From Apophysomyces variabilis (lineage: Eukaryota; Mucoromycota; Mucoromycetes; Mucorales; Mucoraceae), in assembly GCA_002749535.1 (NCBI GenBank), contig MZZL01000403.1:582209-646208 (forward strand): a DNA stretch of 64,000 bases. The letters run 5' to 3'. This document shows positions 524-27,662 of this stretch, one piece after another; the first letter of the stretch is position 1; each line of letters opens with the position of its first letter. The position numbers and the translations under genes were made by a program. A model generated the notes under the pieces. The model saw only the letters and a list, made by a program, of their open reading frames with translations. It had not been told where the DNA came from and did no database searches.

Positions 524-1830
524 GCTTGCTCAAGTCTAACCATCATGTTCCAAAAAGAAAAAAAGGTGGCGTATCGTGAGTGCTTCGCTTCTTTGTCTTT
601 TTCGTCCGTTCAATCCATCAATAAGTCTGTTCATCCATCTATCTATTTTTCGCTCTCTATATCGCTTCTAACCTTGGATGATACGCACTTACGAAGAGAG
701 AAGGAACTTCTTATTCTTGGTCCTGATGTGGATGCTTCACTATGCCCGTATTCATTTCAAATCCCGACCGGACCTGGAATTTACTGGTTCTTGCAAGGTA
801 ATTTGCGTCAGCCAAAAAGTACTTTTGCGCCAGCGGATATGATACCTTAACGTTCATTCCTATGCTAAGTCTAATTGCCTCCACTCCAACTCCAGATGTG
901 GTACAATCCCCCAAAACTGCGCTTTATTCGTAGAAAAAATAATATAAAATGAAAAACTCCTTCATCCATCTCAACTCATATCTTGAAAGACGCACTACAA
1001 TCGATTTTTTTTTGGGGGGAGGGAAGATGTCAGAAGAAACGATGGAAGAAGCAGGGTTGGGTGTGAGCCATATCTTTCGTCTTCTCTTCGGCAACCTTCG
1101 CCTTTGCGCCAACTAGAAAGAAGAATGCCCAATGTAAGTAGTCCAAATCTTGCCAAGTTCTAAGATAAACATGAGAATAAACTGGTATGCTCTTATTGGG
1201 TTATGGTGCATTCAAGTAAGCGGCACTATAAGAAAAGAAAGATGGTTGGGTGATAAAGCAAAACTAGTCATGTCTACTAACTAGTGTACGAAATCTATAT
1301 GTTTGGTTGGAGGATTTCTCTACTTCCTTTGAACTTCCGAACCTACTTTTTCCTGACTCATATGCTTTAAAATATATTTCCAACATTTTGTTTTAATAGT
1401 GGTAGGTCTTGCTGATCATTCCAGACTCTTCAGTGAATGTATTGGCTGTAATTATCATTCAGATTTGGTTAACACATTAACATTCTATTCTATCTATGTG
1501 CTACTGAGGCACCGGTGGACACAGAATAGCAGAGTGAAAAAAACACTTATCATCACCAATCGTTCAGATTTTACAAAATATGTTAGTAACCATCCCAACC
1601 GGCGCATTATCCGCGCCCTATCATATATATCCTAGTAGAGCAATTATTTATCACATAGAAGAATTAATCAGAGTTTCGCTTATTCCTTGGCGTTTCTTAC
1701 TTTTTTATACACAGAAGGCTCTTTTTCTCTTTCCTTCCCATCGCCCGTTTCTTTTACAGTCTACCTCCTCTTTATGCTCCCAAAAATTTTAGTAGCAAAA
1801 CTGCGGTAATATGCCACAGCCTGTCGAAAC
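524..1830. other. Intergenic region, possible decayed transposase fragment
   Basis: No convincing gene. A minus-strand frame at 711-914 contains YFLADANY, which weakly recalls the second catalytic block of PIF/Harbinger-type (DDE_4) transposases, but it is only 67 codons and has no partner exon I can recognise. The part next to 1700-1800 is pyrimidine-rich and precedes the Fanzor reading frame. The left end of the Fanzor-carrying element must lie somewhere here but I could not locate it. Confidence 0.3.
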
Positions 1831-4642
1831 ATGTGGAATGGCGCCACGGTTCCCTACATTACCCAACGACTCATACTGTTGCTATTACGATTCGCTCTGG
1901 CTCCCGAAAGGGAAAGACAAAACTACAACTTGCGAAAGCGGAAGCAGGAAAGAAAAGACAAACATGAAAAGTATGTATACTCTTTCCTTACGTGTCATGT
2001 AGATCTAACTAGGATATAATAATCTAGGTGCGAGAATATATCGTCAGTTGCAACTCTTGACTGGCGCATAAAGTATCAAAGTCGCGGCCTAAGAAAGCTC
2101 GAAAACCGGGTATCTGCGGACGATCCACGGGTACAGAACCTGTCCGCCATTATCGCTACCCTAAAATCGACCAGATCAAACTTACTTGCACAAAAGAGCA
2201 ATCAAAAGGAACTAGCAAGTAACCCATCTAGGGAAAGAGAAGATGACGAAATGGACAAGGTCCAGTTGAACGATGAAGATGCAGAATGGGAAAGGAACGG
2301 AGAAGAACACGAAGAAGACGAAGAATATCAGAAAGGTACGAAAAATGACGAAAAGGAAGCAGAGGAGGAAGAGGAAGTGCCACCATCCCGGAGCCATCAA
2401 GCAGGTGAAAAGCGCCCTATTCTAGCATCGACATCTTCAGAGCCGAATTCAAAAAAGAGGAAAATAACCCAAGAAACGAGCCACTCCAGACTTCAAAGGT
2501 TAACAACTCTAACAAAACGGCTATTAGCATTGGAAGTTGTCTCGGTAGACAACATCACAGTGAGGAAGCTACAAAAGGAATTTAGCACTGCCAAGTTGAA
2601 CCTGAAAGAAGCCGAGGCAGTCATAGACGTGTATAGCTTCATCAAGCCTTTTTTCCTTTGTCCTACTGGCGGGCTTGCTGTTGATCGACACCCATTGCTG
2701 AATGCCCCTTTGGTGCTACTCGCAAATGTAGTCTTTACGATAACTGATAACAAAAAATTTACGCTTCTATTTGCCCCGCTGTTCGACCGTCGGCCATATA
2801 TTCCCTTGTTTTAAATCCTACCACAACCTTCGAAATATTATGCTGTACAAGAGACGACATGGACGGGTTTGACGTCGTTGGCCCAAATGGCAAAACAATG
2901 ACAAGCTGCCCCGATGCCACCCATAATCCTAAATACATTCTCGGTGCCTTTTTTGACTTCGAGCGAATAGATCGCATATGCCACAAACATGGTCTGAAAT
3001 TTGACAATGTCCTAAAAATTTCATCATATGGTTCTACGAGCATACAAGGGACTGTGTTGGAAAGCAGAAAAGTTGCAAGATCCCGGATACGAGAAACGCA
3101 AAAAGAAGCATGCACGGCCTTCAGCAACGATTTTGCGAAAGGCTCAAGAAAGCGATACCGTTACAGCCATCGGCAAGCATTTCGTTAAACCACAGTAAAA
3201 GTCAAGCAATTGGGAAAATAGCCTTAGAGATAGGACGGAAGCTATATGTTTATTGACGGAAGAAATCAACGCTATCAAAGACGGTCGATCCAACACGTCG
3301 AATGCAGAAGATCTCATAGATACTATTGCCGTCAGGAATGGTTTGAAAAACGAAAGGAAACAAGAAAACAAAAAACTGCTTCTTGAACGCAAAAATTGCA
3401 GAATTTCCGACACGACAAGTATCTCGCAGTCCAGGTAAAACGCCTACTGGCACAAACCTTGCTAAGTAAGCGTCTCCCTTTTACAGGTCATCGTTGACGA
3501 AGAGATCGAAAAGAGCAACCAAAAATTAAGCAAAGGACGCAAAAGAAAACGGAAAACGAAGGACAAAGACCTGACGAAAATTACAGCGAATAGTTTCAAA
3601 TGTGAAGATGACGTTTTAAAAATGGATATCAGAGGAATGACCGAAGATCCAAGTACAGGAATCACGTTTTGCGGCACCGATTACGGTGTTATCACAACGT
3701 CGGAATCGGTTTCTTTGCCAATTGAACGTTTTGCCTACCATCTGAAGCTTGATAACCGATTCAGTGCACTTGAGACTCAGGATGACGACACCGACGATGA
3801 CTTGGCGTCAGATTTCCAAAAGATAGCAAAGACCTTCAAAATCACTGCGAAACAGATTGATGACCTTTCCTTTACAAGACGCGTCAGAAGACAAAGGGAG
3901 TATAGGAAAAGGGTAAGAGCCGTATTTCATGTGGAGCTACGCTGCAATGACAACTCTTTCTGCATCGCAGGCGACCGAAGAGGGAAAGAAGGTAAAAGCT
4001 GTCGAAAAGAAATTTGTCAAAGAGCAATGTCGGAAATGCAGTTGACATCGACAGTTTGCACAATTATCGCAAGGTAGTATTTTACGGTTCTACTGAACTA
4101 AGCAACTAGCTTAGGTCTGATTATAGATTGCGATAGATAACAGAGATACATTGAGGAAATTTTATTCGGAGAAGAAATCAATAAAGAAGTCAAAACGCAC
4201 TCAAGATATATACGCGCAGAAAGCATACGCTATCGTTGCTTCGAATGAACGCAATTTCCTGAATGGTTCGGGAAAGAAGACCGATATCTTACTTATGATG
4301 ACTGGCTCGGCCGGAACAGGAGTGTGCTCCCCTATCCGAGGGCATTACCGGCGTGGTGGGAAGAAATTGAGAGAGCAACATTTACAACAAACATCGGTGG
4401 GGATGACAAACGAATTCCGTTCTTCTCAACTGTGTCCTTTCTGCTACCAAGATCTCTCCCACCCGAACAAGAAAAAAGATGGCGATATCAAGAAAAACTT
4501 TGGCACAGTTATTTGCACAAATTCCGAATGCATTAGTGTGAAGAAAGGGCATGACTCACGTGGCCGGGACCAAAATGCTGCCCTGAACATTGCTCTCGCC
4601 AAGACGAGTGCCCTTTTCTCAAAACACCACAAACCATTCTAG
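1831..4642 (+). CDS. Fanzor (eukaryotic TnpB-like RNA-guided nuclease), divergent copy, integrity uncertain
   Basis: Reads as a multi-exon TnpB/Fanzor-family protein. Exon 1 (1831-1970, starts MWNGATVPYITQRL) joins in frame to an exon from 2028, which is rich in acidic and basic residues. A frame change near 2780 is needed to continue into 2859-3188 (DFERIDRICHKHGLKFDN). The frame at about 3487-4074 holds the RuvC-I block with GTDYGVITT. The last block (about 4151-4642) holds the rest of the RuvC fold: TNEF (catalytic Glu) just before a zinc ribbon (CPFC then CTNSEC), then GRDQNAALNIA (RuvC-III Asp). All three acidic positions are therefore present. I found no AG to splice around the 2780 shift, so a 1-nt indel is likely and this copy may be decaying. 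The segment 3189-3486 is unresolved. Proteins of this family cut DNA guided by an omega RNA encoded next to their 3' end. Confidence 0.72.
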
Positions 4643-4710
4643 GAGTTCAACCCAAAAAAAGCCAGTAAATACTTGCTGGATAATAATTTGTTAGCTTCGC
4701 TTATGTCCAT

Positions 4711-4995
4711 CCCGGAGGGGTGCGGCGTGGGTGCCCGCGCTTAGCAGCGGGATACCTTCGGGGTAAGTAAAAAGACAGCAATGTACCCTTCCGGTTTGCT
4801 AACCATGAATTATATTTCTCGCTACTCGAATGAATTGTGGCCCACTGAAGTACCAGATTCATGTAAGCAAAGTATACTTTCCGCATAACAGATTTGGTTA
4901 ATGACATAAAATTAGTTTACTTTTATCGTAAATTTGGTGCTTTCATGGGCGCAGAATTTGTTTTGCAGTAGCGCAAAATATGACTCAATAATCAG
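4711..4995 (+). ncRNA. Candidate omega RNA scaffold and right end of the Fanzor element
   Basis: Starts about 70 bp past the Fanzor stop codon. It contains two adjacent hairpins: CCCGC (4734-4738) with GCGGG (4747-4751), and TACC (4753-4756) with GGTA (4762-4765) around a TTCG turn. The same pair of hairpins, preceded by GTGCGGCGT, recurs near the right ends of two elements at 18.9 and 27.4 kb. The first stem there is CCCGT/ACGGG, a compensatory C-G to T-A change that supports an RNA structure. Similarity between the copies continues to a right terminus CAG followed by TA (993-997 of the 4 kb line, i.e. 4993-4997). In known TnpB and Fanzor systems the guide RNA scaffold sits exactly here. Transcription is inferred. 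Confidence 0.55.
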
Positions 4996-5005
4996 TACAT
5001 ACACA

Positions 5006-5921
5006 CTAGTCCTTCTGCACTCGCTTCGCTCCTTCCGTTACAGCCGCGTGCGGCTGCAGGGAATGAATTTGCGGCGACTTCTAGCATATGTTTACGTTAA
5101 CGTAAGATATTGCCAAAAATGAAGTCCTCATTCTAATAAAGATACACCAATTAAGATAAATAGTCTAAAACGCGAAAACGATCAGGAGACATAAGAACGT
5201 AAATAAGCCAGTATCTCTTGTGGGCAACAATTTCAGATAGGCAAAAGAAGAGCAGAATGAATGTTTGAAGCCTAAGTACCTGCCTTGTATAACATAGCTT
5301 CTGAAACTTGGTCTTTACGTTAAAAAATTACAGAGCGAAGGACAAAGTTAGCATAGGAATGGTTACTTCTGTTGGCAATAGAATATGTAAGAAACAGAGA
5401 CAAATTGGCAGTGTTCACTGAAGGTACATGTCTCTAGGAACAAAGCAATAGTCCTCCATATAAAGATCCTATCATTGAGCATTTTTATCGTATATAAAAC
5501 GGATGGAGGTCAATTAGACAATATATTAAACTACTCATTGCACTTTTGCAAAGCGCTTGACCCTTCTCATTACTGCTGAAGTTCTTACACAATGCCTATT
5601 TAACTGTCCTTCGTAATATCTTCTACCCACCTATTGCAGCTCAACTCTCTTGACCCGCACATCAAGATTGCATACACATACCAAATTGCTACTGAGAACA
5701 ACACGACCCTTTGGCCTTCTTGGAAAGCGTCAGACAATATCTCTAACGGATCTATTCCTCTACTTCATTGCTGGATGTATTCTTTTCTCCTAAATAAAGA
5801 CTTCTATATATCAACTGGATAGTACTACGGTCGAACCAGCTTGCAAGAAACTGGATGTAATACCGGCAAAACGTTTTTGCGCGAAAAAATTACTCGAAAA
5901 TACAGTATACTAATAGAGAGA
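5006..5921 (-). mobile_element. 0.92-kb repeat, left copy of an inverted pair; Helitron-like ends
   Basis: Inverted copy of 15904-16872, with small indels between the two. Read on the minus strand it begins TCTCTCTATTAG and ends CTAG followed by T, with a GC-rich palindrome (CAGCCGCACGCGGCTG) upstream of that end. Helitrons begin TC, end CTRR after a hairpin, and insert between A and T. Here the base before TC is A and the base after CTAG is T, as expected. The hairpin is about 34 nt from the end, further than the usual 10-12, so the class is not certain. A palindrome TTACGTTAACGTAA lies inside. There is no coding capacity. Confidence 0.5.
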
Positions 5922-15903: not shown

Positions 15904-16872
15904 TCTCTCTATTAGTACACTGCATTTTCGAGTAATTTTTGCGCGCAAAAACATTTTGCCGGTAGTACAACCAGTTTCCTGCAAGCTGGTTCGACCGTCG
16001 TACTCTTCAGTTGATATATAGAAGTCTTTAGTTAGGAGAAAAGAGTACGTCCAACAATGAAGTAGAGGAATAGATTCGTCTTAGATGTTATATGACGCTT
16101 TCCAACAAAGTTCAAAGAGTCGAGTTGCTCTCAGTAGCAATTTGGTAGGTGGGTGCAATCTTGATGTGTGTGTCAAGAAAGTTGAGCTGCAATAAGTGAG
16201 TAGAAGAATATTAAGAAGATCATTAAATACGCATTCGTGTAGAAACTTCAGCTGCAGTGAGAAGGGTCAACTGCTTCCGAAGTGCAGTGAGTAGTTGAAT
16301 ATATTGTCTGATTGACCTCCATCCGTTTTATATACGATAAAAATGCTCAATGATAGGATCCTTATATGGAGGACTACTGCTTTTTTCCTGTAGACATGTG
16401 CATTCAGTTAACACTGTCGATTTATCTTTGTTTTTCCATATTCTATTGCCAACAGAAGTAATTGTTCCTGTGCTAACTTTGTCATTCGATCTGTAACTTT
16501 TTAACGTAAGATCAAGGTCCATAAGCTACGTAATAGGAGGCAGGTACCCAGGCTTCAAACATTCATTCTGCTCTTCTTTTGCCTATCTGAAATTGTTGCC
16601 CACAAGCGATATTGGCTTATTTACGTTTTTATGCCTCCTGATCGTTTTCGCGTTTTAGACTATTTATCTTAATTGGTGAATCTTTATTTCACAACACCAT
16701 ATCATATCAGTCACTTAAGTACACCTCTTGGATATCTTACATTAAAATGAGGACTTCATTTTTGGCAATATCTTACGTTAACGTAAACATATGCTAGAAG
16801 TCGCCACAAATCCATTTCCCGCAGCCGCACGCGGCTGTAACGGAAGGAGCGAAGCGAGTGCAGAAGGACTAG
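15904..16872 (+). mobile_element. 0.97-kb repeat, right copy of an inverted pair; Helitron-like ends
   Basis: Same family as 5006-5921, in opposite orientation. It starts TCTCTCTATTAGTA, has a GC-rich palindrome (CAGCCGCACGCGGCTG) near 16826-16841, and ends CTAG (16869-16872) followed by T. It is about 50 bp longer than the left copy because of a segment near 16680-16740. The base before its TC start is T rather than the A expected for a Helitron. It could alternatively be a long terminal repeat-like end of another DNA element. No open frame of interest. Confidence 0.5.
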
Positions 16873-17059
16873 TTCCGTAGCTTTACTGTCTTTTTTCTAT
16901 TTGTCTGCGCGTTTCTATATTTTATTTGCAGACTTAGGATACAAAGTTCTTGCGGAATCCAAAAAAAAGGTTTTGCATGATTGGAGAATATCTTTGGTCA
17001 GACTACCCTTCTTTGCGTAAAATCGTGTCTATGTTCACTATTTACTGAGATAGTTTATT

Positions 17060-17290
17060 TCAAACCACAGCAAGACGAATTTGTTTAAGAAGTGGCTCTC
17101 TACTTTTGCATCTAACGAAAAAGCTCTCAGCGTGTCTGATGCATCCTTGACAGTCTGAGCGCTTTACTTCTCGCGCTGCTTGAACAATACGCTCTTGAAG
17201 GTTATCGTCAACTTGTAAGGGCTCCCTTCTTACCCAGTTGTCACTTTGGCCCAAAACTCTTTATTGGGTTGAGAAAGGGAGAGTAGAGAG
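17060..17290 (-). pseudogene. Tc1/mariner transposase remnant (C-terminus) in R1
   Basis: The translation contains LQERIVQAAREVKRSDCQGC then IRHAESFFVRC, aligning with the last 40 residues of the intact transposase at 57892-59265 (RIVEACKEVRKKDCEGWIRH and SISFFPRC). Just upstream, the complement of 17248-17275 encodes LNPIKEFWAKV, matching LNPIEEFWSKV including the catalytic Glu. The rest of the transposase is missing. The stop lies about 175 bp from the element end, similar to the 140 bp seen in the intact element. Confidence 0.7.
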
Positions 17291-18900
17291 GAAGACAGAG
17301 ACATTAATATCCCCTTTCTTCAGCCAACTGCTTAACCTTGACTGGTGTATAGATGGGTACATTATCTATGACAAGATACTAACCGTTCATTTTGTGGCAA
17401 TCCAATCTTCTGTGATTCCCTGATAGACAAAGATTCTTGGCAGGCAGAAGTTCGTACACAACATGGTTTGACACACACACAGAAAGCCCGCCCTTTTCCC
17501 CAGTGCCACTTAAAGGTTTCCATGTGGGCGTTTGTCATGACAAAAAGGAAAACTATGTGAATTCATTTTGATGACTCAGTTCTTTTCCCCTCTTCTTCTT
17601 CTAATTTCTTCTTTTGACGTCAACCACATTTCTGTATTTGCAATAACGGACAACCATGACTCTAGTTCTCTCTCTAATGACATAACCAATGCAGTGCCAA
17701 GTCAACCCCCTAAAATACCCGAAACAGAGCTCTGATGCAGAAAAGAGGTGCGGTAGTCGGTATTCCAAGATAACGAAGCTCACTGTTGATGAAAACATGT
17801 TATTTTTTGTAGAACACATGTTATCATGATATTCCATGAACGCTCGTTATATTGGTAATACGCATATATTATACCTTTGCTAACCATTGATCTTCTATGC
17901 ATATGACAAAGAAAAGTAATATTTTGATTGACAGAATCCATTCCTTGTCAATCTCATTTGTGTAAGAGTTATGCTTAACATGAAGCAATAATCTCGTCCA
18001 AAATCTCAACCTTATTTTAGATGACTTTTTATAATCTATTAGATCCCCTTTCCATCAATCTCTTGTATAAAGCTTTTAGAGAAGTCTGAAGGTTATATGG
18101 GGTACACAATTTTTTAATGCATTTCTGTTCTTTGTTTTCCTTATTATATGCTAGACTTGTTATTGATAAACAAACCAGTGGACTTTATTTCTTATTTTAG
18201 ATTCGAAATGCTTGACGACAAATTCTTGCTCTAATCTTGAAGAGATCCATGTCTTCTGGTAAGGTCCTATCTAAAAAAGCAGAGTGTTAGTTCAGTAACT
18301 GTCTTCTTAGTTTCCTCTCTTCTGATATTCTGGCTTGCTTCTAGTTTTTAGCTCACTGTCAAATGCATGAAAGTCTTTGTTACAAACTATAGTCTAATCC
18401 CGTTAATTGTTTCCTATTACGATATAGCTAGATCCAACGACAACAGTATTTTAAAGGAAAACCTATATTCTTTTTTCAGTTACTCTCTCTTTCAAACATC
18501 GCATCTAAAATTTTCTTTTCTTTCCTCTTTCTGATCTATCCTCTTTGTACTTTTTGGATTTCTATCGACATGTTCCGGTTTTAAAGTTTTTTTTTTTATT
18601 TTCTTTCGGTATAAAAAAACGCTAATATACCATATATCAACGTACTTGTATTTGTTGTTGATCTATTTAGCATGCACGACCTCTGTTCCTAACCGTTACC
18701 GGCTTTTCAGTGCTCCCTATATTTGTAGAAGTAAGTACTTTTTAATGTGTGTACATACAGAACTAAATTTATTCTTTGTTGTGCCTCACTATAAGGCCCG
18801 CCATACGCAGTATCGTTTCATGTCCTCTGCAGTGCTACATCTAACATGGCCAATTCTACGCCATCACAATTTTTCTTCCACCACGACCCACATGGCCAAG

Positions 18901-18945
18901 GTGCGGCGTAGGTCCCCGTCCCCACGGGAATACCCTTCGGGGGTA
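18901..18945 (+). ncRNA. Candidate omega RNA hairpin pair in R1
   Basis: The element GTGCGGCGTAGGT is followed by stem CCCGT (18915-18919) / ACGGG (18924-18928) and stem TACCC (18931-18935) / GGGTA (18941-18945) with a TTCG turn. It is homologous to the element behind the Fanzor gene at 4734-4765, where the first stem is CCCGC/GCGGG. The paired change and the kept UUCG-type turn point to an RNA fold. Similarity with the Fanzor 3' region continues for about 230 bp to the right end of R1. Confidence 0.55.
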
Positions 18946-19177
18946 AGTAAAAAAGATGTCAAGCTATCCTTCCATTTACTAACCATGAACGTATTTTATA
19001 CGCTGCTCGAATGAATTTTGTGTCCACTGGAGGACCAAGTTGAGGTAAGTAAAATACATTTCCTGCATAATTCATTTACTAATGAAGCTTATTTATATCC
19101 CTTTTAGCGCAAACTTTGATCCTTGCATAGACGCAAAACTTATTTAGAGTAGCGTAAAAAAATTGTTCAATAAACAG

Positions 19178-25356: not shown

Positions 25357-25531
25357 TTGTGTTTTTTTCTATTTGTCTGCGCGTTTCTGTATTTTATTTG
25401 CAGACTTAGGATACAAGTTTTTGCGGAATCCAAAAAAAAGGGTTTTGCATGATTAGATCAAAATATTTGCGGTCAGACTACCCTTCTTTGCGTAAAGTCG
25501 TGTCTATGTTCACTATTTACTGAGATAGTTT

Positions 25532-25765
25532 ATTTCAAACCACAGCAAGACGAATTTGTTTAAAGAAGTGGCTCTCTACTTTTGCATCTAACGAAAAAGC
25601 TCTCAGCGTGTCTGATGCATCCTTGACAGTCTGAGCGCTTTACTTCTCGCGCTGCTTGAACAGTACGCTCTTGAAGGTTATCGTCAACTTGTAAGGGCTC
25701 CCTTCTTACCCAGTTGTCACTTTGGCCCAAAACTCTTTATTGGGTTGAGAAAGGGAGAGTAGAGA
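25532..25765 (-). pseudogene. Tc1/mariner transposase remnant (C-terminus) in R2
   Basis: Same remnant as at 17060-17290, including the LNPIKEFW block with the catalytic Glu. One extra base near 25562 changes the frame relative to R1, so it is not functional. Confidence 0.65.
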
Positions 25766-27386
25766 GGAAGACAGAGACATTAATATCCTCTTTCTTCAGC
25801 CAACTGCTTAACCTTGACTGGTGTATAGATGGGTACATTATCTATGACAAGATACTAACCGTTCATTTTGTGGCAATCCAATCTTCTGTGATTCCCTGAT
25901 AGACAAAGATTCTTGGCAGGCAGAAGTTCGTACACAACATGGTTTGACACACACACAGAAAGCCCGCCCTTTTCCCCAGTGCCACTTAAAGGTTTCCATG
26001 TGGGCGTTTGTCATGACAAAAAGGAAAACTATGTGAATTCATTTTGATGACTCAGTTCTTTTCCCCTCTTCTTCTTCTAATTTCTTCTTTTGACGTCAAC
26101 CACATTTCTGTATTTGCAATAACGGACAACCATGACTCTAGTTCTCTCTCTAATGACATAACCAATGCAGTGCCAAGTCAACCCCCTAAAATACCCGAAA
26201 CAGAGCTCTGATGCAGAAAAGAGGTGCGGTAGTCGGTATTCCAAGATAACGAAGCTCACTGTTGATGAAAACATGTTATTTTTTGTAGAACACATGTTAT
26301 CATGATATTCCATGAACGCTCGTTATATTGGTAATACGCATATATTATACCTTTGCTAACCATTGATCTTCTATGCATATGACAAAGAAAAGTAATATTT
26401 TGATTGACAGAATCCATTCCTTGTCAATCTCATTTGTGTAAGAGTTATGCTTAACATGAAGCAATAATCTCGTCCAAAATCTCAACCTTATTTTAGATGA
26501 CTTTTTATAATCTATTAGATCCCCTTTCCATCAATCTCTTGTATAAAGCTTTTAGAGAAGTCTGAAGGTTATATGGGGTACACAATTTTTTAATGCATTT
26601 CTGTTCTTTGTTTTCCTTATTATAATGCTAGACTTGTTATTGATAAACAAACAAGTGGACTTTATTTCTTATTTTAGATTCGAAATGCTTGATGACAAAT
26701 TCTTGCTCTAATCTTGAAGAGATCCATGTCTTCTGGTAAGGTCCTATCTAAAAAAGTACAGTTCAGATTGTTGTTAGTTCAGTAACTGTCTTCTTAGTTT
26801 CCTCTCTTCTGATATTCTGGCTTGCTTCTAGTTTTTAGCTCACTGTCAAATGCATGAAAGTCTTTGTTACAAACTATAGTCTAATCCCGTTAATTGTTTC
26901 CTATTACGATATAGCTAGATCCAACGAAAACAGTATTTTAAAGGAAAACCTATGTTCTTTTTTCAGTTACTCTCTCTTTCAAACATCGCATCCAAAATTT
27001 TCTTTTCTTTCCTCTTTCTGATCTATCCTCTTTGTACTTTTTGGATTTCTATCGACATGTTCCGGTTTTAAAGTTTTTTTTTTATTTTCTTTCGGTATAA
27101 AAAAACGCCAATATACCATATATCAACGTACTTGTATTTGTTGTTGATCTATTTAGCCTGCACGACCTACGTTCCGAACCGACACTGGCTTTTCAGTGCT
27201 CCCTACTTTTGTAGAAGTAAGTACTTTTTAATGTGTGTACATACAGAACTAAATTTATTCTTTGTTGTACCTCACTATAAGGCCCGCCATACGCAGTATC
27301 GTTTCATGTCCTCTGCAGTGCTACATCTAACATGGCCAATTCTACGCCATCACAATTTTTCTTCCACCACGACCCACATGGCCAAG

Positions 27387-27431
27387 GTGCGGCGTAGGTC
27401 CCCGTCCCCACGGGAATACCCTTCGGGGGTA
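27387..27431 (+). ncRNA. Candidate omega RNA hairpin pair in R2
   Basis: Identical to the R1 element: CCCGT (27401-27405) pairs with ACGGG (27410-27414), then TACCC (27417-27421) pairs with GGGTA (27427-27431) around TTCG. It is followed by about 230 bp shared with R1 and with the Fanzor 3' region. Confidence 0.55.
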
Positions 27432-27662
27432 AGTAAAAAAGATGTCAAGCTATCCTTCCATTTACTAACCATGAACGTATTTTATACGCTGCTCGAATGA
27501 ATTTTGTGTCCACTGGAGGACCAAGTTGAGGTAAGTAAAATACATTTCCTGCATAATTCATTTACTAATGAAGCTTATTTATATCCCTTTTAGCGCAAAC
27601 TTTGATCCTTGCATAGACGCAAAACTTATTTAGAGTAGCGTAAAAAAATGTTCAATAAACAA

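Follow-up and report, generated by a model that had tools for sequence, protein, structure and literature searches.

A structured 3' end shared by Fanzor-bearing and Fanzor-less Tc1/mariner elements of Apophysomyces variabilis as a probable guide-RNA scaffold

The last ~270 nt (4728-4997, + strand) of a Fanzor-bearing transposon of Apophysomyces variabilis probably encode the guide-RNA (omega-RNA) scaffold of its Fanzor, kept as well in transposase-bearing 'ghost' elements. Positions refer to the window, the whole stretch of 64,000 nucleotides that was analysed. The element has an RNA-type structure at its end and shares its ends with its relatives, and the structure lies where a Fanzor1-type gene has its 3' end and the transposon its right end, which the initial annotation had rightly recognised as the position at which known systems encode an omega RNA. 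We infer its transcription, its binding by Fanzor, its use as a guide and its service in trans, the last being an idea already known under the name of 'ghost loci' (PMC10432273). The evidence, which consists of sequence, points to one Fanzor guide-RNA architecture common to nuclease-bearing and transposase-bearing elements.

The two-hairpin block

The initial annotation had described a block of two hairpins at 4734-4765, 18915-18945 and 27401-27431. These coordinates proved exact on re-reading, with stems 1 and 2 at 4734-4751/4753-4765, 18915-18928/18931-18945 and 27401-27414/27417-27431. The sequence also agrees with its description of stem 1 (CCCGC/GCGGG in one copy, CCCGT/ACGGG in the other two) and of stem 2, given as a TTCG turn with a length changing from 4 to 5 pairs and found here as 4 or 5 pairs around TTCGG. 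Both hairpins are thus present, but they are not the full extent of the structure, which is conserved further on, to 4985. The two additional copies are indeed Fanzor-less; they are not independent, those at 18.9 and 27.4 kb being 98% identical over 2.3 kb, and their carriers are not the short elements that had been supposed, measuring ~2.3 kb each (16886-19177 and 25357-27662). The features of the window are as follows.

780..783, + strand: left flank TTTA (TT plus the TA target-site copy), predicted Fanzor TAM, from the F left ends
784..4995, + strand: Fanzor-bearing Tc1/mariner-type element (F family), from ends common to 11 copies with mostly different flanks
2023..4744, + strand: Fanzor1-type gene of several exons, start approximate, broken in the window copy, from the published signature and genome relatives
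4734..4751, + strand: hairpin 1 (P1), CCCGC/GCGGG, from family-specific compensatory stems
4753..4765, + strand: hairpin 2 (P2), TACC-TTCGG-GGTA, from genome motif matches and a sequence-and-structure model
4808..4985, + strand: long irregular hairpin (P3/P4), arms 4808-4859 and 4931-4985, from RNAalifold, pair counts and strand tests
4863..4926, + strand: intron-like segment in the apical loop (GTAAGC...), last base differing from the usual TTTAG
4996..4997, + strand: right TA target-site copy, from the F end comparison, coordinates re-read
4998..5012, + strand: predicted guide, host flank of ~15 nt, by inference from the SpuFz1 layout (PMC10432273)
16886..19177, no strand assigned: Fanzor-less Tc1/mariner element T1 with antisense transposase remnant, frames read by eye
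18915..18945, + strand: P1 and P2 of T1, coordinates re-read
18987..19161, + strand: long hairpin of T1, from folding, coordinates re-read
19045-19107, + strand: intron-like segment of T1, within its long hairpin
25357..27662, no strand assigned: Fanzor-less element T2, 98% identical to T1, from comparison, frames read by eye
27401..27431, + strand: P1 and P2 of T2, coordinates re-read
27473..27647, + strand: long hairpin of T2, coordinates re-read
27531-27593, + strand: intron-like segment of T2, within its long hairpin

In the genome searched (38.7 Mb, 126 contigs), the hairpin-2 motif has 200 matches at up to 3 mismatches, most of them known from the motif match alone, against 0 for the reversed control; chance is ruled out as the cause of its recurrence. 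With the 285-base query, 40 scored places were obtained among 212 candidates, 13 of the scored ones at 91-100%. From two genome queries we cut out 50 copies of the 3' end (L001-L050, the window's own being L001, L021 and L022), which belong to families F (13 copies), X (7), T (21, two of them divergent) and M (9, including one divergent copy, M2). The F family is the one with Fanzor sequence upstream of the 3' end, and its members L012 and L013 are truncated.

Five family-specific sequences of stem 1 occur among the 50 copies. The stem reads CCCGC/GCGGG in F and CCCAGC/GCTGGG in X, with CTCAGC and TCCAGC variants. T copies have CCCGT/ACGGG, changed to CCCGT/ATGGG in four copies and to CCCAT/ATGGG in L037, and M copies have CCTACC/GGTAGG, CCTGTC/GGCAGG or TCTGCC/GGCAGG, with CCCATG/CGTGGG in L046. 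Under a template that fixes stem and loop length for each family, every pair (G.U included) is kept in 39 of the 50 copies; the other 11 have one mismatch or a deletion, or are misparsed. A sequence-and-structure model of the block, trained on 27 Fanzor-less (T/M) copies alone, picks it out in 19 of the 20 copies of F and X, each at E <= 0.002. The single miss is L011 (E 0.79), which is without the 5' arm of stem 1, and one extra partial match falls at the end of L034. None of the 4227 Rfam models matched the window at gathering score, nor the region 4700-5010 at E <= 1.

The Fanzor-bearing element

Judged by its sequence, the 4.2-kb F element has the anatomy of a Tc1/mariner-type transposon. 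Eleven copies have in common the left end CTGGTTCTTGCAAGG and the right end TTCAATAATCAG, or close variants of these, with TA outside both. The ends are weakly inverted repeats, and the TIR is short and imperfect. Among occupied sites, which are the ones compared, TA follows 12 of 13 F right ends and precedes the F left ends. The flanks of the 11 copies are mostly different, L051 and L057 having the right flank in common. No transposase was recognised in F elements.

The published Fanzor1 signature is D-X(125,275)-[TS][TS]XX-[C4 zinc finger]-X(5,50)-RD (PMC3627910), and the F gene reads GTDYG ... SSQLCPFC ... CTNSEC ... GRD, with 247 codons of DNA from D to SS, or ~230 residues after removal of an inferred intron. 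Against the Pfam PF07282 cut-off of 26.3 bits, the window exon scores 15.6 and the L053 exon 11.2, while a set of loci that are 32-34% identical to the F exon (family C) reach that cut-off with their neighbours. A PDB search with the last Fanzor exon of L053 gave no match to any chain. The C-terminus has three protein matches, the best from Apophysomyces ossiformis (91% identical), the others 48% and 40% identical. In other F copies the Fanzor frame runs to a stop inside the loop of stem 1 (window TAG at 4742-4744); in the window copy a TAG comes before the usual frame end. The frames, as listed rather than fitted to a gene model, are interrupted, split or shifted in 11 F copies.

Fanzor sequence is abundant in this genome, which holds 109 stretches related to the F Fanzor C-terminus, including multi-copy families with open frames. 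There are also 73 PF07282 matches, and within several groups of open copies the scores are identical, suggesting a rich Fanzor population that was active recently. Two further Fanzor families, A and B, both multi-copy with open frames and each read in one copy (L071 and L072), have 3' ends with a GCTAT-loop hairpin on compensatory stems (CCGTC-GCTAT-GACGG and CCTGTC-GCTAT-GACAGG), which from its sequence is likely a guide-RNA element of another type. Neither family matched the T/M-trained model at E <= 1 and the hairpin is a different one, so A and B are not obvious suppliers of Fanzor to the elements described here.

The Fanzor-less elements

T elements measure 2.2-2.3 kb in the 6 copies with the left end read (the two window copies, L063, L064, L065 and L067), and M elements 1.41-1.56 kb in 7 of 9 copies; at up to 4 mismatches the M left end was not found in L046 and L047. 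PF13358 (DDE_3) scores above its cut-off in all three M/M2 frames tested (43.6-52.3 bits, frames broken), and pieces of a DDE transposase, again in broken frames, were read by eye on the opposite strand of 8 of the 9 M loci and of the two T copies in the window. These broken antisense pieces indicate decayed transposase-bearing mariners rather than miniature elements. A listing of the frames on either strand of six T/M loci showed no conspicuous long frame on the + strand. Those further hairpin-2 carriers that were read are Fanzor-less Tc1/mariner elements with a decayed antisense transposase or no recognised gene. The T and M groups are Fz-less and IR-flanked and have a common omega-RNA-like end, as ghost loci are defined, part of the copies having been read at both ends.

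X elements (L014-L020) have in common up to ~1.7 kb of sequence that runs upstream from, and includes, the 3' end, and neither Fanzor nor transposase was recognised in the sequence reached, the left ends lying beyond it. We considered X as a second Fanzor family and rejected it. No Fanzor-like frame was noticed in the 6 of 7 X loci listed (all except L016, with less than 0.8 kb upstream in L017), and by coordinates no Fanzor C-terminal match lies within 10 kb of the 7 loci.

The long hairpin and its coding strand

The two-hairpin block opens an element end of ~270 nt, the last ~180 nt of which form one long hairpin (4808-4985). RNAalifold was run on 41 of the 50 copies (L011, L022, L027, L031, L032, L034, L036, L037 and L039 were left out for deletion, truncation or redundancy) and predicted 49 pairs, 9 of which change on both sides. 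Over the 40 pairs of the long hairpin in these 41 copies, 96.4% of cells are paired, against 36.8-51.9% when one arm is slid, and covariation scores 0.240, where shuffles give 0.158 +/- 0.005. Of five covariation measures, two do not exceed the shuffles; pairs with two-sided change number 8 against 6.6 (87/500) and pair types 38 against 40.3 (494/500). Covariation over genomic copies, which had been proposed as the check on the annotated structure, is thus found in stem 1 and in the long hairpin.

Folding of single copies gave z values of -5.3 for the F + strand and of -4.1 and -3.4 for the + and - strands of T1. The RNAalifold consensus energy is -22.5 kcal/mol on the + strand and -6.4 on the - strand, and 60 column shuffles of the consensus fold had a mean of -1.8 and a lowest value of -7.6 kcal/mol. 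G.U cells outnumber A.C cells by 301 to 23 over the 41 copies, in a structure that had been chosen on the + strand. Held-out comparisons, which carry noise from misaligned stems 1 and 2, gave a mixed picture. From 22 T/M to 19 F/X copies, 88.2% of cells are paired on the + strand (G.U:A.C 189:67, 12 of 18 changed consensus pairs kept) against 75.5% on the - strand (159:153, 10 of 27 kept) and 45-48% for slid controls on +. No strand signal appears in the reverse direction, from 19 F/X to 22 T/M copies (+: 80.6%, 185:84, 13 of 22 kept; -: 80.2%, 169:61, 8 of 16 kept), or from 12 F copies to the other 29 (+: 74.5%, 344:273, 17 of 40 kept; -: 74.3%, 315:171, 18 of 37 kept). In all held-out tests pairing is well above the slid controls (36-57%). 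That the structured RNA is encoded on the + strand is well supported, short of proof.

Further structures were weighed by eye or by prediction. A long-range GTGCGG/CCGCAT pairing was dropped by eye, GTGCAG copies being without the matching change. A Pol III promoter in the upstream part of T/M was dropped in the same manner, since Pol III would terminate at the T runs within the long hairpin. RNAalifold also allows a pairing of GTAAGTAAA with TTTACTAACC that is incompatible with hairpin 2; this could be a switch or a coincidence.

An intron-like segment in the apical loop

Within this loop, 38 of 41 copies have GTAAG, 40 have TAATGA or TAATAA and 35 have TTTAG, and the segment so delimited is 63-64 nt long in 38 of 41; the window F copy is without the final G. 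When the segment was cut out in silico in one copy of each of the four families, a 7-nt loop was left each time. Between the F, X and T consensuses, identity is 93% in the segment signals, 64% in the segment interior, 79% in the flanking stems and 62% in the unpaired sequence linking stem 2 to the long hairpin; given this last value, the interior is not specially fast. A strict search of the 64-kb window for such segments found only the two T elements, with 0.35 expected in random sequence, and since these two matches are near-copies the rarity of the segment is by itself weak evidence. The segment looks as an intron would, and it may alternatively be a conserved protein-binding loop.

A second splice-like pair, with GTAAGT over stem 2 and a branch-like CTAACC, occurs at 4762-4850 and at the equivalent places in other families. 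We set this candidate (GTAAGT at stem 2 ... CTAACC ... AG) aside because its removal would delete the 5' arm of the long hairpin.

It is possible, if doubtful, that the guide-RNA precursor is spliced, with a 63-64 nt spliceosomal intron (GTAAGY...YTRAY...TTTAG) in its apical loop, within a system split over Fanzor- and transposase-bearing Tc1/mariner elements that each carry the same guide RNA. Among the titles and abstract starts of open papers we found no report of a spliced omega RNA, the queries having been made without a splicing term, and the word 'intron' occurs 0 times in PMC11423790.

Element flanks and the predicted TAM

TT stands before the TA in 9 of the 11 F copies whose left end is readable (the exceptions are L053 and L059), and TTTA stands before all 6 T left ends read; in the window, TT precedes 9.3% of TA. 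For a larger count of T/M left ends we used a 23-nt query that starts at the A of TA and was chosen without regard to the flank. TTT comes before that A in 65 of 77 left ends and is missing in 12 (present in 29 of 32 exact and 36 of 45 one-mismatch matches), kinship being unweighted and the left ends not each traced to their own right end. No mirrored AA motif was seen on the right side of the elements. A one-sided TTTA left flank is common to Fanzor-bearing and Fanzor-less elements, and by analogy with described systems it would act as the Fanzor TAM. A flank motif confined to one side is uncommon among TA-targeting transposases.

Directly beyond the right TA, 24 of the 25 T/M copies whose right end is readable have a T (5 further copies are truncated); F copies vary at this base, and none of the 6 X copies read has a T there. 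A repeat of ~950 bp, found in the window at 5005-5921 and 15904-16873, has its ACTAGTCC end within ~12 bp of the outer edges of several F and T elements, at the right ends of F copies (window, L051, L057 and L058) and of the T copy L028, and at the left ends of T copies (window 16882 and L063). As L051 and L057 represent one junction and the two T left junctions look alike, these repeat junctions are not all independent.

Interpretation

We picture the scaffold as two small hairpins followed by the long hairpin, the TIR end, the TA and the guide. The RNA would read through TIR and TA, and the guide would be the first ~15 nt of host DNA past the right end. It would load into Fanzor as in the published Fanzor1 model (PMC10432273), and Fanzor would cut TTTA plus the guide sequence, which is the donor site emptied by excision; repair from an intact copy would then restore the element. 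T/M elements would profit from the Fanzor of F elements, and F elements from the transposase of T/M. In the F elements read the gene is broken or split, so the arrangement may belong to the past, or a different Fanzor may provide the service, and since the copies read look old the system may be a fossil in this genome. In favour of a guide is the Fanzor frame that ends within loop 1; against it stand the two intact-looking Fanzor families, A and B, which end in a different hairpin. Of the guide-RNA scaffold as first proposed, the covarying RNA-type structure has held up, whereas the two hairpins turned out to be its 5' part alone.

The long inverted repeat might instead be a DNA feature that is never RNA, namely subterminal transposase-binding repeats composed of the TIR and an inner inverted copy. 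The 3' arm of the long hairpin does lie inside the TIR region, the - strand folds too (T1 z -3.4), and two of the three held-out comparisons are without a + strand preference. Yet the consensus energy is far lower on + than on -, G.U cells prevail over A.C cells (though in a structure chosen on +), one held-out comparison favours +, and stem 1, which is far from the TIR, also covaries, passing through G-C, G.U and A-U states within T; we consider the DNA feature unlikely. Mere shared ancestry of T, M and X, with the end kept only for the transposase, would agree with 3' ends that are ~72-80% identical between families and ~91-93% between T and M, but plain descent does not change both arms of a stem together, and this explanation seems highly improbable.

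The structure could also be RNA of a different kind, a 3' processing or stability element of a + strand mRNA, with TTTA reflecting which targets the transposase prefers. The splice-like signals found here would suit such an element. The structure is kept, however, in the six T/M loci without an outstanding long + frame (+ frames read by listing alone), and the one-sided flank motif matches the TAM layout published in PMC10432273, which makes an mRNA element rather improbable. If the guide-RNA scaffold is the right reading, the arrangement would amount to a division of labour like that of the two genes of IS605, set on separate eukaryotic transposons, and one nuclease may once have served all these elements. 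It predicts TTTA as the TAM, says where the guide should lie at many loci, and suggests that making the guide RNA may involve splicing.

Comparison with known systems

Transposase-bearing loci with a Fanzor guide RNA, or Fanzor RNAs of Apophysomyces, were not reported in the titles and abstract starts of the open papers found. What follows rests on passages of the papers cited. The closest parallel is SpuFz1 of Spizellomyces punctatus (PMC10432273), likewise a Fanzor1 in an IR-flanked element, with a conserved 3' RNA that adjoins the right end and is also found in many Fz-less loci (134 against 42 there), the published ghost Spu-1 loci with an omega-RNA end. In both systems a dinucleotide precedes the left IR and TA; CA plus TA gives the TAM CATA there, also at ghost loci, and TTTA is predicted here. 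The ghost Spu-1 loci are ~550 nt long with no ORF described, whereas the elements reported here measure 1.4-2.3 kb and carry an antisense Tc1/mariner transposase remnant. The SpuFz1 scaffold has 75 nt, and omega-RNA scaffold lengths are given as 75, 90 and 150 nt in PMC11423790; the scaffold proposed here is longer than all three, with ~270 nt, or ~206 without the loop segment, and has in addition that intron-like segment at its apex.

As in GtFz1 (PMC10432273, PMC11423790), the putative RNA overlaps the C-terminal coding end of the Fanzor, by 17 aa there, while here stem 1 covers the last 3 codons; the GtFz1 omega RNA has 150 nt and comes from another host with another sequence. The F element also resembles the mariner-type Fanzor1 elements of Bao and Jurka 2013, such as PUl-4, which are Fanzor-only with mariner-like TIRs and TA duplications (PMC3627910); RNA is not among the features described in the passages compared, and the element studied here ends in an RNA-type structure. 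Finally, the reRNA of insect-virus Fanzor1 (PMC10711439) extends ~15 nt beyond TIR and target-site duplication, which are predicted to be part of the scaffold here too, and belongs to a different transposon family from this Tc1/mariner-type one.
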